DNA of 64,000 bases from Prochlorococcus sp. AG-686-J21. Lineage in GTDB: Bacteria > Cyanobacteriota > Cyanobacteriia > PCC-6307 > Cyanobiaceae. The translations under genes were made by a program, and so were the position numbers. The notes under the pieces were generated by a model that worked only from the letters and a program-made list of their open reading frames with translations, searched no databases and was not told where the DNA came from. How positions within the stretch are numbered: the stretch's first letter is position 1; each line of letters starts with the position of its first letter. Shown one piece after another: positions 34,426-56,839 of the stretch. Location: assembly GCA_003210285.1 (NCBI GenBank), contig QCVS01000003.1, positions 1 through 64,000 of the forward strand, given 5' to 3'.

Positions 34426-34785
34426 ATGCTAAGTGGTAGCGATCTCCTTGCTAAAGTTAAAGAACTTGGTGATGTTAGCAAGTCAGATCTTGTACGTGCA
34501 TGTGGATATGTTTCCACAAAAAAAAATGGAAGCGAACGTTTAAATTTCACTGCTTTCTATGAAGCACTTCTTGAAGCAAAGGGCGTTAACCTCGGAGATA
34601 CTGGAGTTGCGGGTATTGGTAAGGGTGGCAGAAAATTAAGTTACGTAGCGACAGTCCAAGGCAATGGTAATCTTTTGATTGGGAAAGCATATACAGCACT
34701 TTTAGACTTAAAAGCAGGCGATGAGTTTGAAATAAAACTAGGGAGAAAACAAATAAGATTATTACCCACGGAAGAATCAGCATAA
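34426..34785 (+). CDS. cyAbrB family transcriptional regulator
   Basis: 119 residues, the size of cyanobacterial AbrB-like proteins, which act in carbon/nitrogen balance and are global DNA binders. An N-terminal helical part (LLAKVKELGDVSKSDLVRACGY) precedes the AbrB-type beta domain at the C-terminus (GNLLIGKAYTALLDLKAGDEFEIKLGRKQIRLL), the reverse placement typical of cyAbrB. It is monocistronic, with a clear terminator 27 bp after the stop. Target genes are not indicated. Confidence 0.9.
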   Translation: MLSGSDLLAKVKELGDVSKSDLVRACGYVSTKKNGSERLNFTAFYEALLEAKGVNLGDTGVAGIGKGGRKLSYVATVQGNGNLLIGKAYTALLDLKAGDEFEIKLGRKQIRLLPTEESA

Positions 34786-34811
34786 AACATTATTTTTAAA
34801 TATTAAGAACT

Positions 34812-34838
34812 AAACCCCTTTTCATCTAGGGGTTTTTT
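34812..34838 (+). terminator. Rho-independent terminator after cyAbrB
   Basis: A perfect 8-bp stem AAACCCCT/AGGGGTTT (34812-34819 with 34828-34835), an 8-base loop, and T residues continuing to 34838. It is the strongest classic terminator I found on the plus strand. Confidence 0.9.
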
Positions 34839-34877
34839 AATGAAATTGACTTACAAAATTAGTTTTTAAAATTACAT

Positions 34878-35717
34878 CTATTGATCAGCAGCTTTACGCA
34901 TTTCTTCACAAAATTTACCAATTTGATTTATAACTTCCTTTTCATTACTATTAGATATTCTTTTAACAAATGCACTTCCAATAATTACTCCATCTGCCCC
35001 CCATTTACGCATTTTATTAACATGTCCAGGGGAAGATATTCCGAAACCAACCGCGACAGGATTTATGCTTATTTCCTTTAATTTAGTAATAAGATTTTCT
35101 ACTCTATTTTCCATTGTGTTTCTCTCCCCTGTTACTCCTGTCACGCTTACTAAATATGTAAAACCTTTTGTATTGTTAGATATCAATTTCATTCTTTCAT
35201 AGGGAGTAGTAGGAGCAACTAATAATATCAAGTCTATAGAATAAGAGCTAATTATTTCTGAAAATTTATTTGCTTCTTCCAAGGGAAGATCGGGAATTAT
35301 TAATCCCGAGACTCCAACTTTAGATACCAATTCACAAAAATTCTCAAGTCCAAAATTTAATATAGGATTAAAATAAGTGAAAAGTATTATTGGAATATGC
35401 AACTTATCTTTGAGAGACTCTAATAATTGAACAACCTTTTTCAATGTAGTTCCTGACTTTAATGCTCTAGATGCTGATAATTGAATGATTGGGCCATCAG
35501 CAAGAGGGTCGCTATAAGGGATTCCCAATTCAATAAAATCAGCACCCTTTTCTTGCAACTTTAATAAAATCTCGGATGTAGTTTCAATATTAGGATCTCC
35601 TGCCATAATGAAAGGCATCAATGCTAGTTTATTGACTTTCTTTAGTTCCAAAAACTTCTTATTAATTTTTGATAAAGTTTCATTTTTAGGAATTTGCGTT
35701 TTCTTGTTTTCTTTCAT
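34878..35717 (-). CDS. trpA: Tryptophan synthase alpha chain
   Basis: Cleaves indole-3-glycerol phosphate; indole passes to the beta subunit. 279 residues, TIM barrel. Catalytic Glu63 and Asp74 lie in FIELGIPYSDPLADGP, 11 residues apart as in the Salmonella enzyme (Glu49/Asp60). The C-terminal phosphate site is in VAVGFGIS and GVIIGSAFV. It is third in an ndhL-DUF3007-trpA run. Confidence 0.97.
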   Translation of the reverse strand: MKENKKTQIPKNETLSKINKKFLELKKVNKLALMPFIMAGDPNIETTSEILLKLQEKGADFIELGIPYSDPLADGPIIQLSASRALKSGTTLKKVVQLLESLKDKLHIPIILFTYFNPILNFGLENFCELVSKVGVSGLIIPDLPLEEANKFSEIISSYSIDLILLVAPTTPYERMKLISNNTKGFTYLVSVTGVTGERNTMENRVENLITKLKEISINPVAVGFGISSPGHVNKMRKWGADGVIIGSAFVKRISNSNEKEVINQIGKFCEEMRKAADQ

Positions 35718-48929: not shown

Positions 48930-49169
48930 TTATTTTTCTGAAAAGTAATTATCTAATCTTGTAGAAAATTCTTTTTCATTACTTGGTATTTTCTCAGAAT
49001 CTAAAAAGATAGATACACTAACAAAATTCATACCAAAACTAATATTGGGATAGATATTTTTTTCTTTACATAATTCATCTATTTTTTTCAAAAATATACT
49101 AATTTTTTGATACTCTTCAAACTCAAATCTTTTTTCAATTCTTGAAGGCGACTCCCTTTGTTTCCACAT
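48930..49169 (-). CDS. Pterin-dehydratase-like protein, likely Rubisco assembly factor acRAF
   Basis: 79 residues with a pterin-4a-carbinolamine dehydratase-like core (RIEKRFEFEEYQKISIFLKKI, then NIYPNISFGMNFVSVSIFL). The catalytic HHP of true dehydratases is YPN here, so enzyme activity is unlikely. A degenerate dehydratase-like protein encoded by alpha-carboxysome loci acts as a Rubisco assembly factor (acRAF), and the position, 100 bp after csoS4B on the same strand, fits. The 100-bp gap may hold a separate promoter. Confidence 0.8.
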   Translation of the reverse strand: MWKQRESPSRIEKRFEFEEYQKISIFLKKIDELCKEKNIYPNISFGMNFVSVSIFLDSEKIPSNEKEFSTRLDNYFSEK

Positions 49170-51330: not shown

Positions 51331-53613
51331 CTATCCTCTTGCACCACCTGAAAAGGTAACGAGTTGTCCATCACGAGTGTTGCCACTAGATCCAGTTATA
51401 AGAAAATCAGGTTTTTCTGTCTCATTATTTCTCTTAATATCAACTGGTGGCATGGCTCCCATAAATCCCGCTCTTGAAGGATTCCTCTTCCTAGCAGAAA
51501 CTCCTTCTGTCCCCGTTACTTTATCTCCTCTATCCCAGTCATCACCTGTTATATTCCCTGCAGACTGACCCTCGCCTGTTATTCTAGAAGGTTCTTTTTT
51601 ATCTGTAGGAATATCAATATTTTGACTTTCTTCAAGTTTCATTTTTTGTTTATAAGTCATATTTTTATTAGGTTCAAATCTAAATTGCTCAGTCCCTGTA
51701 ACTTTATCTTCTGCCATATCAAAAGGTCCTGTAATCTTTGAACTATCTTCATACTTATTACCCGTTACTCCTTCTGTATTTTTAGCTGAGTACTTCTCTC
51801 TTGATGGCGAGTTAACAGAAAATCCTTCCCAAGAATTTGAGGCTGATTTCTCTTGGTTTGCATAGGAAGCATCGTTTGGAGGTGTTTCACAATTTGATAA
51901 AAACTGATCTCCTCCAATATAGGGAGTTCCCGTTAAATTTTTACAAGCACCTTTTTTAGCACCTGTCATAACACCACCTATCCCAGGCTGTTGTCCAGTA
52001 AGTCTTGCATTTGAATTGTTACCAGAATTTATAGTGGCTCTAGATTTCACATCTTCAACAATTTGCGAGTTGCAGTTTTCATTTATTTGATCTAGACCTG
52101 CATAAGGAGTTCCAGTAAGAACCTTGCAAGCTCCAGGCTCATCACCAGTAACTAATTTTGATCTACCTGTCATAGTTCCACTTATCAAATTAGATTTTGA
52201 AGAAAGACTAACGCCAACTTTTTTAGCTTCAGCGTTTGGTTTAGATCCACAAAATTTTTCATATTGCTTAGAACCTATATATTCATCTCCAGTAACGTTT
52301 TTACAACTTCCATGTTCATTCCCAGTAACAAATTCAGATCTCCCTACTCCAGTTCCTGTAACTTGATTGCCATTTAAGGTGTCGTATTTTCCAACTTTTT
52401 CAAAAGATTTACCTTTAGGCATTGGTTCTGAACCAAGATATTGATCACCAGTTAATTGATGCCCTGAACCAGATTCATCTCCAGTAACTAAAGATGATCT
52501 TCCAGGCAAGGATCCAGATACTTTTAAACCATCAGAGGTAATACTTTGTTTAACTTTAGATGGATTTTTATATACTTCTCCACAAAATTTTTGAGATTGA
52601 TTAGCAGATATATATTCTGTTCCAGTTAATTTTTTACAAGTTCCAGGCTCATCCCCAGTCACCTTTTCGGATCTACCTACTTCGTTTCCTGTAACGATAT
52701 TTCCAGAGGAAGTTGAAGTAACAGAAGATCTTAATGGCTGTTTATATTTTGGTTTTGTTTGGCAAAATTCATTTATTACCTCTGCTCCCATGTATTGAGT
52801 ACCTGTAACTGTTCTACATGTGCTTGCCTCATTACCTGTTGTTTTGAGAGATCTATTGGCTTGTGTTCCTGTTACTGTTTGACCTGAATCAGTTTCACTT
52901 ACACCAACTTTCAAGTTTAAATCGGAGATATTTAGCTTAGATCCATTCTTATTAGGCCCACAAGGTCTACATTTTCCATTACCATTTTTAGTTGTTGCTC
53001 CAGTTTTACTTCTTAGTTCTCTTACTCTTTGTGAAATTTCTCTACTTGATAAATCTGGATCTCCCCTTCTGGCTAAAGACGCAGCACTAGTATTTTGTTT
53101 AGATGCTGATTTTCCATGTTTTGATTGTGCTTCTCTTCTGGCTAATACAATATCTCTACTAGTATTTGTAATAGGCTTTCTTTTTTGAGAAACTCTCCTT
53201 TTAATATTCTTATTAATAACATTAATATTCTGATTCTCTGAATTGTCTGTTTCTTTTGTGGGGGTAGTTGAAATTACTTGGGGTGCTTTTTTAACTTCAT
53301 TACGAGTTCTATCAGAAGTATTTAAGGCTGATTTACCATGAGTAGACATTGCTTTTCTTCTTTCTATACCAAAGTCTTTACTTGATAATTTTGATGAAGT
53401 AGATTTTCTATTAACTTTACTCGCTGGAATATGGGTTTTACTTGGTGCTGAAAAAACTTTTTTATTAGAAGACGTCGATCCAGCTGTATGTATATCTTGA
53501 GATGATCTAACTCTATCTTTAGTTGAAGAAGAATTTGAAGCGGCTTTTTTCCCACCATCACTCATAGCCTTTCTTCTTTCAAGCGCAATCTCTCTACTGG
53601 TTTTTGTTGACAT
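51331..53613 (-). CDS. csoS2: Carboxysome assembly scaffold CsoS2
   Basis: Intrinsically disordered scaffold that links Rubisco to the shell. I start at the ATG at 53613 (MSTKTS), not an in-frame TTG at 53622, giving 760 residues. Four N-terminal Rubisco-binding repeats (for example IALERRKAMS, FGIERRKAMS, IVLARREAQS, then a weaker REISQRVRELR) are followed by six middle VTG-type repeats and a C-terminal shell-binding region ending VTFSGGARG. Five of the six middle repeats carry a cysteine pair 18 residues apart. I found no clear frameshift site for a short form. A terminator-like hairpin precedes the gene. Confidence 0.95.
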   Translation of the reverse strand: MSTKTSREIALERRKAMSDGGKKAASNSSSTKDRVRSSQDIHTAGSTSSNKKVFSAPSKTHIPASKVNRKSTSSKLSSKDFGIERRKAMSTHGKSALNTSDRTRNEVKKAPQVISTTPTKETDNSENQNINVINKNIKRRVSQKRKPITNTSRDIVLARREAQSKHGKSASKQNTSAASLARRGDPDLSSREISQRVRELRSKTGATTKNGNGKCRPCGPNKNGSKLNISDLNLKVGVSETDSGQTVTGTQANRSLKTTGNEASTCRTVTGTQYMGAEVINEFCQTKPKYKQPLRSSVTSTSSGNIVTGNEVGRSEKVTGDEPGTCKKLTGTEYISANQSQKFCGEVYKNPSKVKQSITSDGLKVSGSLPGRSSLVTGDESGSGHQLTGDQYLGSEPMPKGKSFEKVGKYDTLNGNQVTGTGVGRSEFVTGNEHGSCKNVTGDEYIGSKQYEKFCGSKPNAEAKKVGVSLSSKSNLISGTMTGRSKLVTGDEPGACKVLTGTPYAGLDQINENCNSQIVEDVKSRATINSGNNSNARLTGQQPGIGGVMTGAKKGACKNLTGTPYIGGDQFLSNCETPPNDASYANQEKSASNSWEGFSVNSPSREKYSAKNTEGVTGNKYEDSSKITGPFDMAEDKVTGTEQFRFEPNKNMTYKQKMKLEESQNIDIPTDKKEPSRITGEGQSAGNITGDDWDRGDKVTGTEGVSARKRNPSRAGFMGAMPPVDIKRNNETEKPDFLITGSSGNTRDGQLVTFSGGARG
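51883..52911 (-). repeat. Six middle (M) repeats of CsoS2
   Basis: Each unit contains VTG-type triplets, as in VTGDEPG..C..LTGTxYxG, and most end in a cysteine. Counting from the 53613 start, pairs are C266/C284, C326/C344, C437/C455, C496/C514 and C557/C575, always 18 apart. The third unit has no cysteine. The N-terminal repeats upstream are a different type. Confidence 0.88.
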
Positions 53614-53636
53614 AATCTTCAAATGTGTAACTCTTT

Positions 53637-53680
53637 AAAAAAAACTTTCTCCAATAAAAAATATTTTTAAAAGGAGAAAG
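53637..53680 (-). terminator. Terminator-like hairpin with T-run between cbbS and csoS2
   Basis: On the minus strand, CTTTCTCC (53673-53680) pairs with GGAGAAAG (53645-53652). The loop contains the inner palindrome AAAAATATTTTT, and the stem is followed at once by eight T residues (53637-53644). This is the layout of an intrinsic terminator placed inside the operon, 22 bp after cbbS and 23 bp before csoS2. Confidence 0.72.
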
Positions 53681-53702
53681 ATATTGACTACTAAAATAAG
53701 AT

Positions 53703-54044
53703 TTAGCGTCCTTGGAAAACGGCAAAAGCTGTTCCTTGGCTTTGTGTGTAAGCGTCGTAACCGATTATTCTTACGTGATGATCAGGATATGCCCTGTGGC
53801 ATGCCTCTAACTCACTTACAACCAAGTTCAAATCTTTTTCCCCAAAGAAAGGGAGTTTCCAATAAGACCAATAAGTTTGCATACTTCCACTAGGGTGGAC
53901 ATGCTCTATAACAGGACTCCATCCTTGAGCAATAATGTATGCAATTTGGTCATATATTTCTTCCTGGGTCATCGGTGGTAAAAAACCGAATGTTTCCAGG
54001 GTAGCAACTGTTTGATAGTCACCAACTGTGCTCTGGAAAGGCAT
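53703..54044 (-). CDS. cbbS: Rubisco small subunit (form IA)
   Basis: 113 residues. Typical small-subunit order: FGFLPPMTQEEIYDQIAYII, then QTYWSYWKLPFFGE and CHRAYPDHHVRIIGYD, ending SFAVFQGR-like (TAFAVFQGR). The short form matches proteobacterial-type form IA. It is separated from cbbL by 88 bp with two hairpins, and from csoS2 by 89 bp with a terminator-like element. Codon use is visibly less AT-rich than the window average. Confidence 0.96.
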   Translation of the reverse strand: MPFQSTVGDYQTVATLETFGFLPPMTQEEIYDQIAYIIAQGWSPVIEHVHPSGSMQTYWSYWKLPFFGEKDLNLVVSELEACHRAYPDHHVRIIGYDAYTQSQGTAFAVFQGR

Positions 54045-54069
54045 AATTAAATAATTTGTGAATGAAATT

Positions 54070-54083
54070 CTCGTAAAAACGAG
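54070..54083 (-). other. Short hairpin in cbbL-cbbS spacer
   Basis: CTCGT/ACGAG with a 4-base loop, 26 bp upstream of cbbS. It is one of two stem-loops in this spacer and may shield the start of the cbbS message. Confidence 0.6.
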
Positions 54084-54094
54084 TTTTATAAATT

Positions 54095-54116
54095 GAGGAG
54101 AAAGATTTTTCTCCTC
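54095..54116 (-). other. Strong 9-bp hairpin in cbbL-cbbS spacer
   Basis: GAGGAGAAA pairs perfectly with TTTCTCCTC around a 4-base loop, 16 bp after the cbbL stop. No T-run follows, so it is more likely a 3' stability element than a terminator. It shares the GGAGAAAGAT sequence with the hairpin before csoS2. Confidence 0.75.
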
Positions 54117-54132
54117 TTATTTGAATTTTGAA

Positions 54133-55548
54133 CTAGCCTTGAACGTCAAGCTTATCAACGGTATCAAACTCAAACTTGATTTCTTTCCAAGTTTCGAGTG
54201 CAATAGCTAATTCAGGACTATGCTTAGCCGCTTCCATTAGAATGTCTCTACTCTCTTTTTCGATTTCGCGACCTGCATTACGTGCTTTCACACAAGCTTC
54301 TAATGCAACACGGTTTGCAGCAGCTCCGGCAGCTGAACCCCATGGATGACCATGAGTTCCTCCTCCGAATTGAAGACAAGAATCATCTCCAAATATTGCA
54401 AGCAGTGCTGGCATATGCCAAACATGGATACCACCAGATGCGACAGCAAACACTCCAGGCATTGATCCCCAATCCTGATCAAAGAAGTTACCTCTTGATC
54501 TATCTTCAGGAACAAATGATTCTCTTAAGTTATCAATGTAACCAAGAGTGGTTTGGCGATCACCTTCTAGTTTTCCAACAACGGTTCCAGTGTGTAATTG
54601 ATCTCCTCCAGAGAGTCTCAAACATTTAGCTAGAACTCTGAAGTGGATACCATGCTTTGGATGTCTATCAATAACAGCATGCATAGCTCTGTGTATGTGC
54701 AGAAGCATGCCATTTTTACGACACCAGTTAGCTAGTCCAGTATTTGCTGTAAATCCACCAGTTATGTAATCATGCATGATGATTGGCATATCAAGTTCTT
54801 TAGCAAATTCTGCACGTTCGTACAGTTCTTCAGGAGTATTCGCAGTACAATTTAAATAATGACCTTTGACTTCTCCAGTTTCTTGCTGAGCAAGTTTCAC
54901 TGCCTCAGCAACGAACTCAAATCTTTCTCTCCAACGTTGGAATGGTTGAGAATTGATATTCTCATCATCTTTAGTTAGATCAAGACCACCTCTTAGGCAC
55001 TCATATACAACCCGACCGTAGTTCTTACCAGATAATCCTAATTTAGGTTTAATGGTACAGCCGAGGAGAGGTCTTCCATACTTATTTAGTCGATCTCTTT
55101 CAACAACTATTCCATTAGGTGGTCCACCACAAGTCTTAATAAATGCGATTGGGAATCTAATGTCTTCAAGACGTAAATGTCTTAAAGCTTTAAATCCAAA
55201 AACGTTACCAACTAAAGAGGTTAATACGTTTGTTATTGAACCTTCTTCGAAAAGATCAAGAGGATATGCAATAAATGCATAAAAAGCTTCTGGATCTCCA
55301 GGGACGTCTTCTATGCGATAACAACGACCCTTGTAAAATTCAAGGTCGGTAAGTAACTCGGACCAAACAGTTGACCAAGTACCGGTAGAAGACTCAGCCG
55401 CTACTGCCGCTGCTACTTCTTCTCTTGGGACACCTTCTTGTCCTGTGCATTTAAAACAGGCTAACAAGTCAGTGTCAAGGGGGACATATTCAGGAGTCCA
55501 GTAGGTATCTCTGTACTCCTTTACCCCAGCGTCATACTTCTTACTCAT
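54133..55548 (-). CDS. cbbL: Rubisco large subunit (form IA)
   Basis: Fixes CO2 onto ribulose-1,5-bisphosphate. 471 residues, complete. The carbamylated lysine is Lys193 with metal ligands Asp195 and Glu196 ([11 protein letters not shown]); catalytic Lys167 and Lys169 lie in GCTIKPKLG. The association with csoS genes and the proteobacterial-like sequence fit form IA, known to have entered the Prochlorococcus/marine Synechococcus lineage by transfer. GC content is clearly higher than in flanking genes. Confidence 0.98.
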
Positions 55549-55587
55549 AAGGATAAATTTAGGTCTATTAAGGGAAATTATTTTTAT

Positions 55588-55604
55588 GCAAAATTAGATT
55601 TTGC
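55588..55604 (-). other. Hairpin between csoS1 and cbbL
   Basis: GCAAAAT/ATTTTGC, a perfect 7-bp stem with a 3-base loop. On the plus strand eight T residues follow; on the minus (message) strand eight A residues precede it. It is more likely an mRNA processing or stability element than a terminator for the operon. Confidence 0.6.
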
Positions 55605-55614
55605 TTTTTTTTAA

Positions 55615-55926
55615 TTAGTCCTTTTGACCAAGGAAATCTCCATTACCAAGTGCTGGCTCAACTTCTCTATGAGGACGAGCAATGATATGAGCTGCAACAA
55701 GACCGTCGCCAACTCTCTCACAAGCATCAGCTCCAGCTCTTACTGCTGCGTTAACAGCACCTGTTTCTCCTCTAACTAAAACCGTGACATAACCGCCACC
55801 TACGAATTCACGACCAATAAGACGAACTTCTGCTGCCTTGGTCATTGCGTCTGCTGCTTCTATTGCAGGTACAAGTCCGCGTGTCTCGATCATGCCGAGT
55901 GCGATACCCATTGTTTCTGTAGCCAT
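55615..55926 (-). CDS. csoS1: Major carboxysome shell hexamer protein CsoS1
   Basis: 103 residues, single BMC domain. MGIALGMIETRGLVPAIEAADAMTKAAEV and the pore-lining EFVGGGYVTVLVRG segment are diagnostic. It tiles the shell facets and is expected to let bicarbonate pass. It is first in the main operon (csoS1-cbbL-cbbS-csoS2-csoSCA-csoS4AB). Its GC content is among the highest in the window, in line with strong expression. Only one single-BMC gene is present. Confidence 0.96.
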   Translation of the reverse strand: MATETMGIALGMIETRGLVPAIEAADAMTKAAEVRLIGREFVGGGYVTVLVRGETGAVNAAVRAGADACERVGDGLVAAHIIARPHREVEPALGNGDFLGQKD

Positions 55927-56254
55927 TGCCTAACTAATTACTAAATGTGGAATGTTCAATTGGAAGAATGGTCCATAACGTACTTATAAGTCAAGCGTTT
56001 TTCACTAAAAACTCTATTAATGTTTTTTCTATCATTGATAAGTTAAACTTATCACCCTTGCTACTATTGATATGTCAATACTTATGAAAATTAGTTAGAG
56101 CATCAAAACATACGGTTGTGTTAAGAAAAAATTTACATTAAGTTATCTGCGTACGAGACAGGCCCTGTCTACACAGGTGTGGAATGTTCAACCTCTTCTG
56201 TCTCAGTATCAAGTTTTAAAGTAAGATGATATCCCAGATAATTTTTATATAATT
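55927..56254. promoter_or_regulatory. Divergent control region between csoS1 and rdgB
   Basis: 328 bp without a gene. It has a 14-bp direct repeat, TGTGGAATGTTCAA, at 55946-55959 and 56178-56191, one copy near each gene. A 15-bp inverted repeat AGACAGG-C-CCTGTCT lies at 56156-56170, followed by ACAC-AG-GTGT at 56171-56180. CGTAC cores are at 55979 and 56150. A -10-like TATAAG (read leftward) lies near 55985-55990. I expect the carboxysome promoter here; no factor can be named. Confidence 0.6.
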
Positions 56255-56839
56255 TTGAACTTACCTGTTCTTACAATTGCCAGTGGAAATCCAAAGAAGG
56301 TATCTGAAATATTAGAAATGTTAGATGTTCTATCTTTAAAAGTAAAAAAACAACCCGAACATTTAAATGTAGAAGAGACAGGTAAAACCTATTTTGACAA
56401 TGCTTTTTTAAAAGCCAAAGCAGCTTCTTTAGAAACTAAGACCTGGGCCTTAGCCGATGACTCAGGGCTTGAGGTTGATTATTTAGATGGGAGACCTGGT
56501 ATATATTCTGCAAGATATGCCAACAATAATAATGAAAAGATTGCAAAATTACTTAAAGAGCTAAGTGATATCCCTTACAGAAGCGCAAAATTCATTAGTT
56601 GCATGGTCTTATGTGATCCAGAAGGAAATTTAGTAAAAGATGCAACTGGTATTTGCTGGGGCGAAATCCTTAAAGAGGCAAGATATCCTAACGGAGAATT
56701 TGAATCTATTTTTTGGGTTAAAGAGGCTAATTGTGTATATGGAGAATTAAGTCATTCTCAATTGAGTAAATTAGGTAGTAGAGGTAAAGCGGCAAAAAAT
56801 ATAGCTCCTTTTTTAAAAAAAGAATTTGGAATAGATTAA
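56255..56839 (+). CDS. rdgB: dITP/XTP pyrophosphatase (RdgB/Ham1)
   Basis: Hydrolyses deaminated purine nucleoside triphosphates to keep them out of DNA and RNA. 194 residues. Motifs: TIASGNPKKVSEI at the N-terminus, then NAFLKAKAA, ALADDSGLEVDYLDGRPGIYSARYA, and a C-terminal SHSQLSKLGSRGKA. The start is TTG at 56255. It splits the carboxysome genes, being divergent from csoS1 and convergent with csoS1D (8-bp gap). No function in carbon fixation is implied. Confidence 0.93.
   Translation: MNLPVLTIASGNPKKVSEILEMLDVLSLKVKKQPEHLNVEETGKTYFDNAFLKAKAASLETKTWALADDSGLEVDYLDGRPGIYSARYANNNNEKIAKLLKELSDIPYRSAKFISCMVLCDPEGNLVKDATGICWGEILKEARYPNGEFESIFWVKEANCVYGELSHSQLSKLGSRGKAAKNIAPFLKKEFGID

Follow-up and report, generated by a model that had tools for sequence, protein, structure and literature searches.

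The spacer between cbbS and csoS2 in the Rubisco-carboxysome cluster of this Prochlorococcus strain carries, on the message strand, a hairpin with a U8 tract directly behind it, which we interpret (probability about 0.6) as a conserved element that forms the 3' end of the message for csoS1, cbbL and cbbS. In this strain it is probably a leaky intrinsic terminator; elsewhere its role would be that of a less efficient terminator or of a barrier to exonucleases. The window referred to below is the whole stretch of DNA analysed, 64,000 nt in length; its source is Prochlorococcus, the nearest loci being Prochlorococcus loci and the CbbS of strain AG-686-P16 being identical.

The cbbS-csoS2 hairpin and its setting in the operon

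Read along the minus strand, the cluster consists of csoS1 (55615-55926; BMC shell protein, PF00936, first gene of the cluster), cbbL (54133-55548; Rubisco large subunit, PF00016 and PF02788), cbbS (53703-54044; Rubisco small subunit, PF00101, stop codon 53705-53703), csoS2 (51331-53613; carboxysome scaffold, PF12288), csoSCA (csoS3) and two csoS4-type genes. A pterin-4a-carbinolamine dehydratase-like ORF comes last (48930-49169, minus strand), its match of 24.5 bits lying below the Pfam cut-off of 26. The first gene 3' of the element, csoS2, starts at an ATG (53613-53611); the ORF list begins it at a TTG further upstream. The spacers 3' of csoS1, cbbL and cbbS measure 66, 88 and 89 nt, those of csoS2-csoSCA, csoSCA-first csoS4 and csoS4-csoS4 measure 7, 3 and 5 nt, and the last spacer measures 100 nt. 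The cso genes are termed an operon in PMC4499774.

The 5' arm (CTTTCTCC, 53673-53680, minus strand) and the 3' arm (GGAGAAAG, 53645-53652) form a stem of 8 bp, four of them G-C, around a 20-nt loop (53653-53672) with a predicted inner A/U helix, and the U8 tract (53637-53644) adjoins the stem. The original prediction of an 8-bp stem and then eight T on the message strand, between cbbS and csoS2 at 53637-53680, was exact in both coordinates and description. The 52-nt hairpin with its tail folds at -11.1 kcal/mol (z -3.2), a value equalled by 3 of 200 shuffles; the complete 89-nt spacer is weaker (z -1.0, equalled by 32 of 200). The hairpin is not provable from the spacer of one strain, and the proof comes from relatives.

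A strict pattern (perfect 8-bp stem with at least four G-C pairs, loop of no more than 20 nt, then at least seven T in eight positions beginning with T) has a single occurrence in the 64 kb, both strands included; 60 block shuffles gave a mean of 0.05 and a maximum of 2. Laxer rules applied to the same window gave 1 occurrence against 0.63 expected, 2 against 0.92 and 4 against 2.55, the cbbS site being absent from the two laxest lists because the search shortened its stem and left a gap over the limit; as the excess fades under these rules, the strength of the site rests on the full combination. A general hairpin scanner, whose rule covers loops of 3-8 only, omitted the site. When the 61 ORFs chosen as genes in the window were ranked at their 3' ends by hairpin energy and U-tail, using an ad hoc score by which 14 of the 61 scored at all, cbbS took rank 1, ranks 2 and 3 both came from a single hairpin at 34.8 kb that lies between convergent genes and was scored from either side, and rank 4 was the 3' end of cbbL. 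The hairpin shared by these convergent genes (34785-34878), ranked next after the cbbS site, is a bidirectional ACCCCT/AGGGGT element with a T-tail.

At the curated threshold Rfam placed no family at the site, its sole match in the window being a tRNA elsewhere; five sub-threshold matches fall within 53500-56300. The Rho_RNA_bind domain found no match in this genome and is present in 9 of 14 control genomes, which suggests that intrinsic signals matter here. A dispersed genome repeat was considered and rejected: the pattern TTTCTCCN{3,30}GGAGAAA occurs at this place and one other, a number equal to that of a reversed control pattern. When 10 further genomes of the family were scanned, 2 contained the exact pattern AGCCTCGAN{0,12}TCGAGGCT, each a single time and, by coordinates, just 3' of cbbS.

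Hairpin and U-tract among the relatives

For the comparison, a search of 200 genomes of the genus detected cbbS in 154, the family sample of 151 genomes had it in 135, and named genomes gave 436 stretches, from which we retained the best 80. Besides the window, 239 loci were analysed, of which the genus search supplied 30 and 40, the family search 29 and 60, and the named genomes 80; one locus of the genus search is the window's own genome and the sets overlap, so that counts are given on distinct spacer sequences, and even these are counts of non-independent events. Two loci were dropped from all counts, L137, where the contig ends inside the spacer, and L202, where a csoS2 start was not found within 400 nt and where repeats of a ACTGATTCAG-like unit lie 3' of cbbS. 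The 238 usable loci gave 179 distinct spacers, which we sorted into a high-light type (94 distinct spacers, 151 loci), a low-light type (54 from 56 loci, with CbbS identity of about 91% or more and a different stem) and a Synechococcus/Cyanobium type (31 from 31 loci). These labels are our own and draw on stem type, CbbS identity and the clade names of such named strains as MIT 9302 and HNLC2.

The best hairpin was more stable than at least 95 of 100 shuffles in 169 of the 179 distinct spacers, that is in 89/94 high-light, 54/54 low-light and 26/31 Synechococcus/Cyanobium-type spacers, and failed this test in ten (5/94, 0/54 and 5/31). Median energies of the best simple hairpin were -13.7, -16.3 and -17.9 kcal/mol in the three groups, in that order, against shuffle means of -4.2, -5.6 and -8.9. 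The stem itself changes between groups: commonly CTTTCTCC/GGAGAAAG in high-light strains, commonly AUAGCCUCGA/UCGAGGCUAU with many variants in low-light strains, and commonly GAGCCCUGA/UCAGGGCUC and GGUCCCGG/CCGGGACC, again with variants, in Synechococcus/Cyanobium. The most stable hairpin fell outside the usual stem types in 7 of the 31 spacers of this last group, two of which (L205 and L208) do contain a GGTCCCGG-type stem.

Compensatory change is evident in the low-light set, where both sides changed at 8 of 10 pairs, involving 31 cells. Of the stem cells in this set 98.0% are paired; sliding the 3' partner by 1-3 columns lowers this to 33.7-44.4%, a comparison that favours the unslid version since the structure was derived from the same alignment (MAFFT, on sequence alone). 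The low-light stems contain 27 G-U and 2 A-C cells, an imbalance that points to folding of the message-strand RNA. All stem cells are paired in the high-light set (57-72% in the slid versions), with compensatory change at 0 of 7 pairs, and 94.4% are paired in 11 aligned Synechococcus-type spacers, with compensatory change at 0 of 13. The high-light arms are almost invariant (91/93 and 88/93 exact), and the 20 nt 5' of the stem are also similar, with a mean column identity of 0.84 (n=87); part of the constancy of the arms therefore reflects recent descent.

A quick tree of cbbL and cbbS was calculated for 128 rows, representing 43 of the 94 high-light spacers and the other 85. With the caveats that base composition is unequal among rows and that good support is limited to 49 of the 125 inner branches, the high-light stem type forms a single clade (support 100*), and stem labels require 9 changes on this tree against 62 when the labels are shuffled.

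The position of the hairpin ties it to cbbS. High-light hairpins begin 22 nt from the cbbS stop codon (IQR 22-22, sd 1.3; 93 spacers) and end 31 nt from the csoS2 ATG (IQR 30-41, sd 5.6); the low-light values are 18 nt (sd 3.6) and 57.5 nt (sd 6.3), and those of Synechococcus/Cyanobium are 20 and 56 nt, both scattered (sd 22.8 and 33.0). Over all 178 spacers the medians are 22 nt (IQR 18-22) and 42 nt (IQR 30-57), position counts that require the csoS2 start having left out L040 and L232. As the distance to the stop codon varies less than that to the ATG, the hairpin is tied more closely to the cbbS end than to the csoS2 start.

These measurements bear on two readings in which the element would serve csoS2. 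Inverted repeats can be operators, and the csoS2 start lies just some 31 nt 3' of the high-light hairpin, so a palindrome acting in the DNA as a regulator-binding site or csoS2 promoter element, with no role for RNA structure, might be proposed. We consider this highly improbable: the spacing of the half-sites is not fixed (10-24 nt between TTCTCC and GGAGAA in the 94 high-light spacers, and low-light loops of 3-10 nt), the distance to the csoS2 start is the more variable one, and both the compensatory changes and the ratio of G-U to A-C cells speak against it. The other reading is that the GGAG within the 3' arm controls csoS2 translation or binds a small RNA, and the MED4 sRNA Yfr10 is reported to pull down csoS1 and csoS2 mRNA (PMC6778093). 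The GGAG lies about 35 nt 5' of the ATG, beyond the usual Shine-Dalgarno range, however, and the letters of the stem differ in the other groups, which makes this reading very unlikely as well.

The U-tract varies far more than the hairpin. A run of at least five U follows the stem immediately in 71 of 94 high-light spacers, where 1.0 would be expected from T content, but in 2 of 54 low-light and 1 of 31 Synechococcus/Cyanobium-type spacers. Under the looser measure of at least five T among the eight positions directly 3' of the hairpin, the counts are 83/94, 22/54 and 9/31, and the corresponding frequencies exceed those of other 8-nt windows in the same spacers in every group (88% against 18%, 41% against 20%, and 29% against 3%). 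T enrichment is thus general across the groups, and an uninterrupted run is found mainly in high-light strains. The state of leading with U5 or more changes 11 times on the 128-row tree, which suggests that the full run comes and goes, being lost, shortened or offset by one or two bases within the high-light group too.

The proposal of an intrinsic terminator accordingly stands in part: the element is terminator-like, on the right strand, with stem and U8 in place, but it is not so family-wide, given that the hairpin is kept in the other groups with the direct U-run in just the few spacers counted above. The conservation looked for in related strains was likewise found for the hairpin in general and for U5 or more in most high-light spacers, with the run rare elsewhere, and a lack of conservation, which had been named as evidence against a terminator, is not what the relatives present.

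Could an A+T-rich spacer have produced hairpin and T-run by chance? The unremarkable z of the whole spacer in this strain and the laxer window scans, which barely exceed expectation, would allow for it. Set against this are the shuffle tests, the strict scan, rank 1 among the 61 gene ends, the excess of T after the hairpin, the 27 G-U against 2 A-C cells and the finding of compensatory change in the low-light set, the very observation named as contrary to chance, and we regard a chance origin as extremely improbable.

Possible termination and processing, and the other hairpins of the operon

A second hairpin, GAGGAGAAA-AATC-TTTCTCCTC, which the original prediction does not mention, lies in the cbbL-cbbS spacer (54095-54116, minus strand), with no U-run on the message strand; here the whole spacer reaches z -4.7, a value that 0 of 200 shuffles equal. 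A small third hairpin, CTCGT/ACGAG, was seen by hairpin scan and folding in the same spacer (54070-54083, minus strand), and a weak, A/U-rich one, GCAAAAT-CTA-ATTTTGC, lies in the csoS1-cbbL spacer (55588-55604, minus strand). The csoS1-cbbL hairpin is also weak among relatives, with a median of -4.9 kcal/mol, reaching -4 kcal/mol or below in 39 of 52 distinct spacers and -6 or below in 9.

The cbbL-cbbS hairpin, in contrast, passes the shuffle test (equalled by at most 5 of 100 shuffles) in 99 of 100 high-light, 52 of 52 low-light and 22 of 29 Synechococcus/Cyanobium-type distinct spacers; 181 of 186 were tested, those read as shorter than 50 nt as well as L137 and L202 being excluded. It follows the cbbL stop codon at a median of 14 nt. 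The T-run leading from it never exceeds two in any of the three groups (100, 52 and 28 hairpins), and at least five T in the eight following positions occur in 10/100, 12/52 and 0/28. Support for this hairpin comes from shuffles of single sequences; alifold found no common structure in the high-light set of cbbL-cbbS spacers and, in the low-light set, just one downstream helix of five pairs. By eye, both stems read UUUCUCC/GGAGAAA in high-light strains, and GAGGCU/AGCCUC recurs in both in many low-light strains. Cross-pairing between the two hairpins flanking cbbS was considered and rejected, as changes in the cbbS-csoS2 stem (L046, L184 and L034) are unmatched, by eye, at cbbL-cbbS.

Two conclusions can be drawn from this second hairpin. 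Its lack of a U-run indicates that the run at cbbS is no by-product of base composition. At the same time, a conserved hairpin with no U-run suggests that the hairpins of the operon are kept for something besides termination at cbbL, and it lends real weight to 3'-end protection of mRNA, as either a partner or a rival of termination. In its rival form, an endonuclease such as RNase E would cut the spacers, the hairpins would protect the 3' ends of cbbL and cbbS, and the Rubisco mRNA would outlive that of csoS2 with no termination at all. The two conserved hairpins, each shortly 3' of a Rubisco-gene stop codon, fit this scheme, as do the lack of a U-run after cbbL and, in the low-light and Synechococcus/Cyanobium types, its interruption after cbbS. 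So do two plasmid-borne proteobacterial cso operons with a hairpin in the cbbS-csoS2 spacer and no direct U-run, namely a perfect 21-bp stem of -43.1 kcal/mol in a 226-nt spacer on a Thiodictyon plasmid (L243, 3900-4000) and a 10-bp stem including G-U of -15.8 kcal/mol in Nitrobacter hamburgensis, although these energies come with no shuffle control and two cases make no rule.

The closest precedent for such processing is the cip-cel operon of Clostridium cellulolyticum (PMC4423207), which encodes a machine of many subunits, the cellulosome, and where intergenic stem-loops that terminate the strongly expressed genes at their 3' side are reported to set stoichiometry, mostly with no U-run (it is present in just 5 of 33). 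Processing sites were mapped there, however, and the cbbS hairpin described here has a direct U8. Against processing and stabilisation as the sole explanation, the U5-U8 attached to the hairpin in 71 of the 94 high-light spacers looks like termination, as does the T excess after the hairpin in the other two groups, and there is no known processing site here. MED4 half-lives are reported to lengthen the further a gene lies from the promoter, contrary to an upstream part that lives longer, and 5 of 9 MED4 genes for CO2 fixation belong to a stable cluster drawn from the middle to the end of operons (PMC2897979). We therefore judge this explanation unlikely on its own, though it deserves to be taken seriously.

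Partial intrinsic termination remains the best reading for the present strain, on account of the stem, the U8 tract, the rank within the window and the control hairpin. High-light strains, with the hairpin and an immediate U5-U8, would most likely possess a leaky intrinsic terminator at which some polymerases stop after cbbS and the rest go on to transcribe csoS2, csoSCA and both csoS4 genes. In transcripts that end there, the terminal hairpin may in addition guard the Rubisco message against 3' exonucleases. Termination of every transcript is less probable, since csoS2 to csoS4 would in that case depend on a promoter that starts within the 23 nt from the U8 tract to the ATG. With the U-tract interrupted in low-light and Synechococcus/Cyanobium-type strains, the same hairpin would serve as a less efficient terminator or as a barrier to exonucleases, and if a direct U-tract is required, the rarity of the run outside the high-light group implies that termination is not the common function. 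Partial termination and 3'-end protection may also act jointly.

Termination, its leakiness, protection and an effect on the Rubisco:CsoS2 ratio are all inferred from sequence. Both termination and protection predict more cbbLS mRNA than csoS2 mRNA. Published work lends this prediction indirect support: rbcL is named among the top transcripts of MIT9301 (PMC10294614), transcripts of the Halothiobacillus neapolitanus cso operon are said to follow protein abundance (PMC2760150), and the cpc operon (PMC3219970) and the clostridial operon (PMC4423207) offer precedents. MED4 transcript levels fall along operons generally (PMC2897979), for which reason only a step at the site itself would show termination.

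Known systems and carboxysome stoichiometry

The nearest known case of termination is the cpc operon of Synechococcus elongatus PCC 7942, in which an internal partial terminator is reported to set the ratio of cpcBA to rod-linker mRNA at 6:1 (PMC3219970). It resembles the present case in that a terminator lies within one cyanobacterial operon, between abundant subunits and a linker, in a host with no Rho. The operon and the group of organisms differ, and 3' ends and RNA levels were measured there, whereas our account is drawn from DNA comparison; moreover, the hairpin described here is family-wide with a changing sequence, and the direct U-run largely belongs to one group.

Among carboxysome operons proper, steady-state transcript levels of the Halothiobacillus neapolitanus cso operon are said to correlate with protein abundance (PMC2760150, citing Cai 2008); a cause of this correlation was not found in the portion of that text available. 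For the cbb operons of Acidithiobacillus ferrooxidans, Rho-independent stops have been predicted, including on a Rubisco/carboxysome operon (PMC2942843), where they are drawn as stem-loop symbols; an analysis of their conservation was not found in the text available. Our literature search, which did not extend to the MED4/MIT9313 primary transcriptome study or the H. neapolitanus transcript study, either of which may report relevant RNA ends, found no description of the hairpin. The kind of device is known and its place appears new; the two conserved hairpins that follow cbbL and cbbS, the change of stem from clade to clade and the U-tract of high-light strains likewise appear not to be in print.

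Carboxysomes need far more Rubisco than scaffold chains, yet both are encoded in one shared operon. A particle of H. neapolitanus is reported to contain 447 Rubisco, each with eight large subunits, against 248 and 192 CsoS2 chains, or about 8 CbbL per CsoS2 (PMC9040747). A cis element at the junction of the two would be a directly testable answer to this need, in very abundant photosynthetic organisms. More tentatively, and with rather less confidence than for the element itself, we suggest that alpha-cyanobacteria, possibly together with cso-bearing proteobacteria, share a stoichiometry device coded in RNA, in which hairpins close the cbbL and cbbS messages, the sequence is re-invented between clades while the place is kept, and the U-tract at cbbS turns the high-light version into a leaky terminator. 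If this holds, variation of the stem and the U-tract from clade to clade and from strain to strain would adjust the Rubisco:CsoS2 ratio and, through it, the filling of carboxysomes. For the transfer of cso operons between hosts, the spacers may carry information of their own, which a foreign set of RNA polymerase and RNases may read differently.

Some smaller features of these spacers were recorded along the way. By eye, GGGCGGAC stands immediately 5' of the csoS2 ATG in many low-light and Synechococcus-type genomes (L041-L059 and L160-L219), and AGGTTCACC or AGGATCCCC stands 5' of the cbbS ATG in many genomes of the same types; both are missing from the high-light spacers inspected in this way. 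Many low-light genomes have a second helix of the GCCGAU/AUCGGC type in the cbbL-cbbS spacer (54045-54132 in the window), closer to cbbS. Read on the opposite strand (54095-54116, plus strand), the main hairpin of that spacer is followed by TTATTTGA, with five T in eight positions, and could end antisense transcripts.
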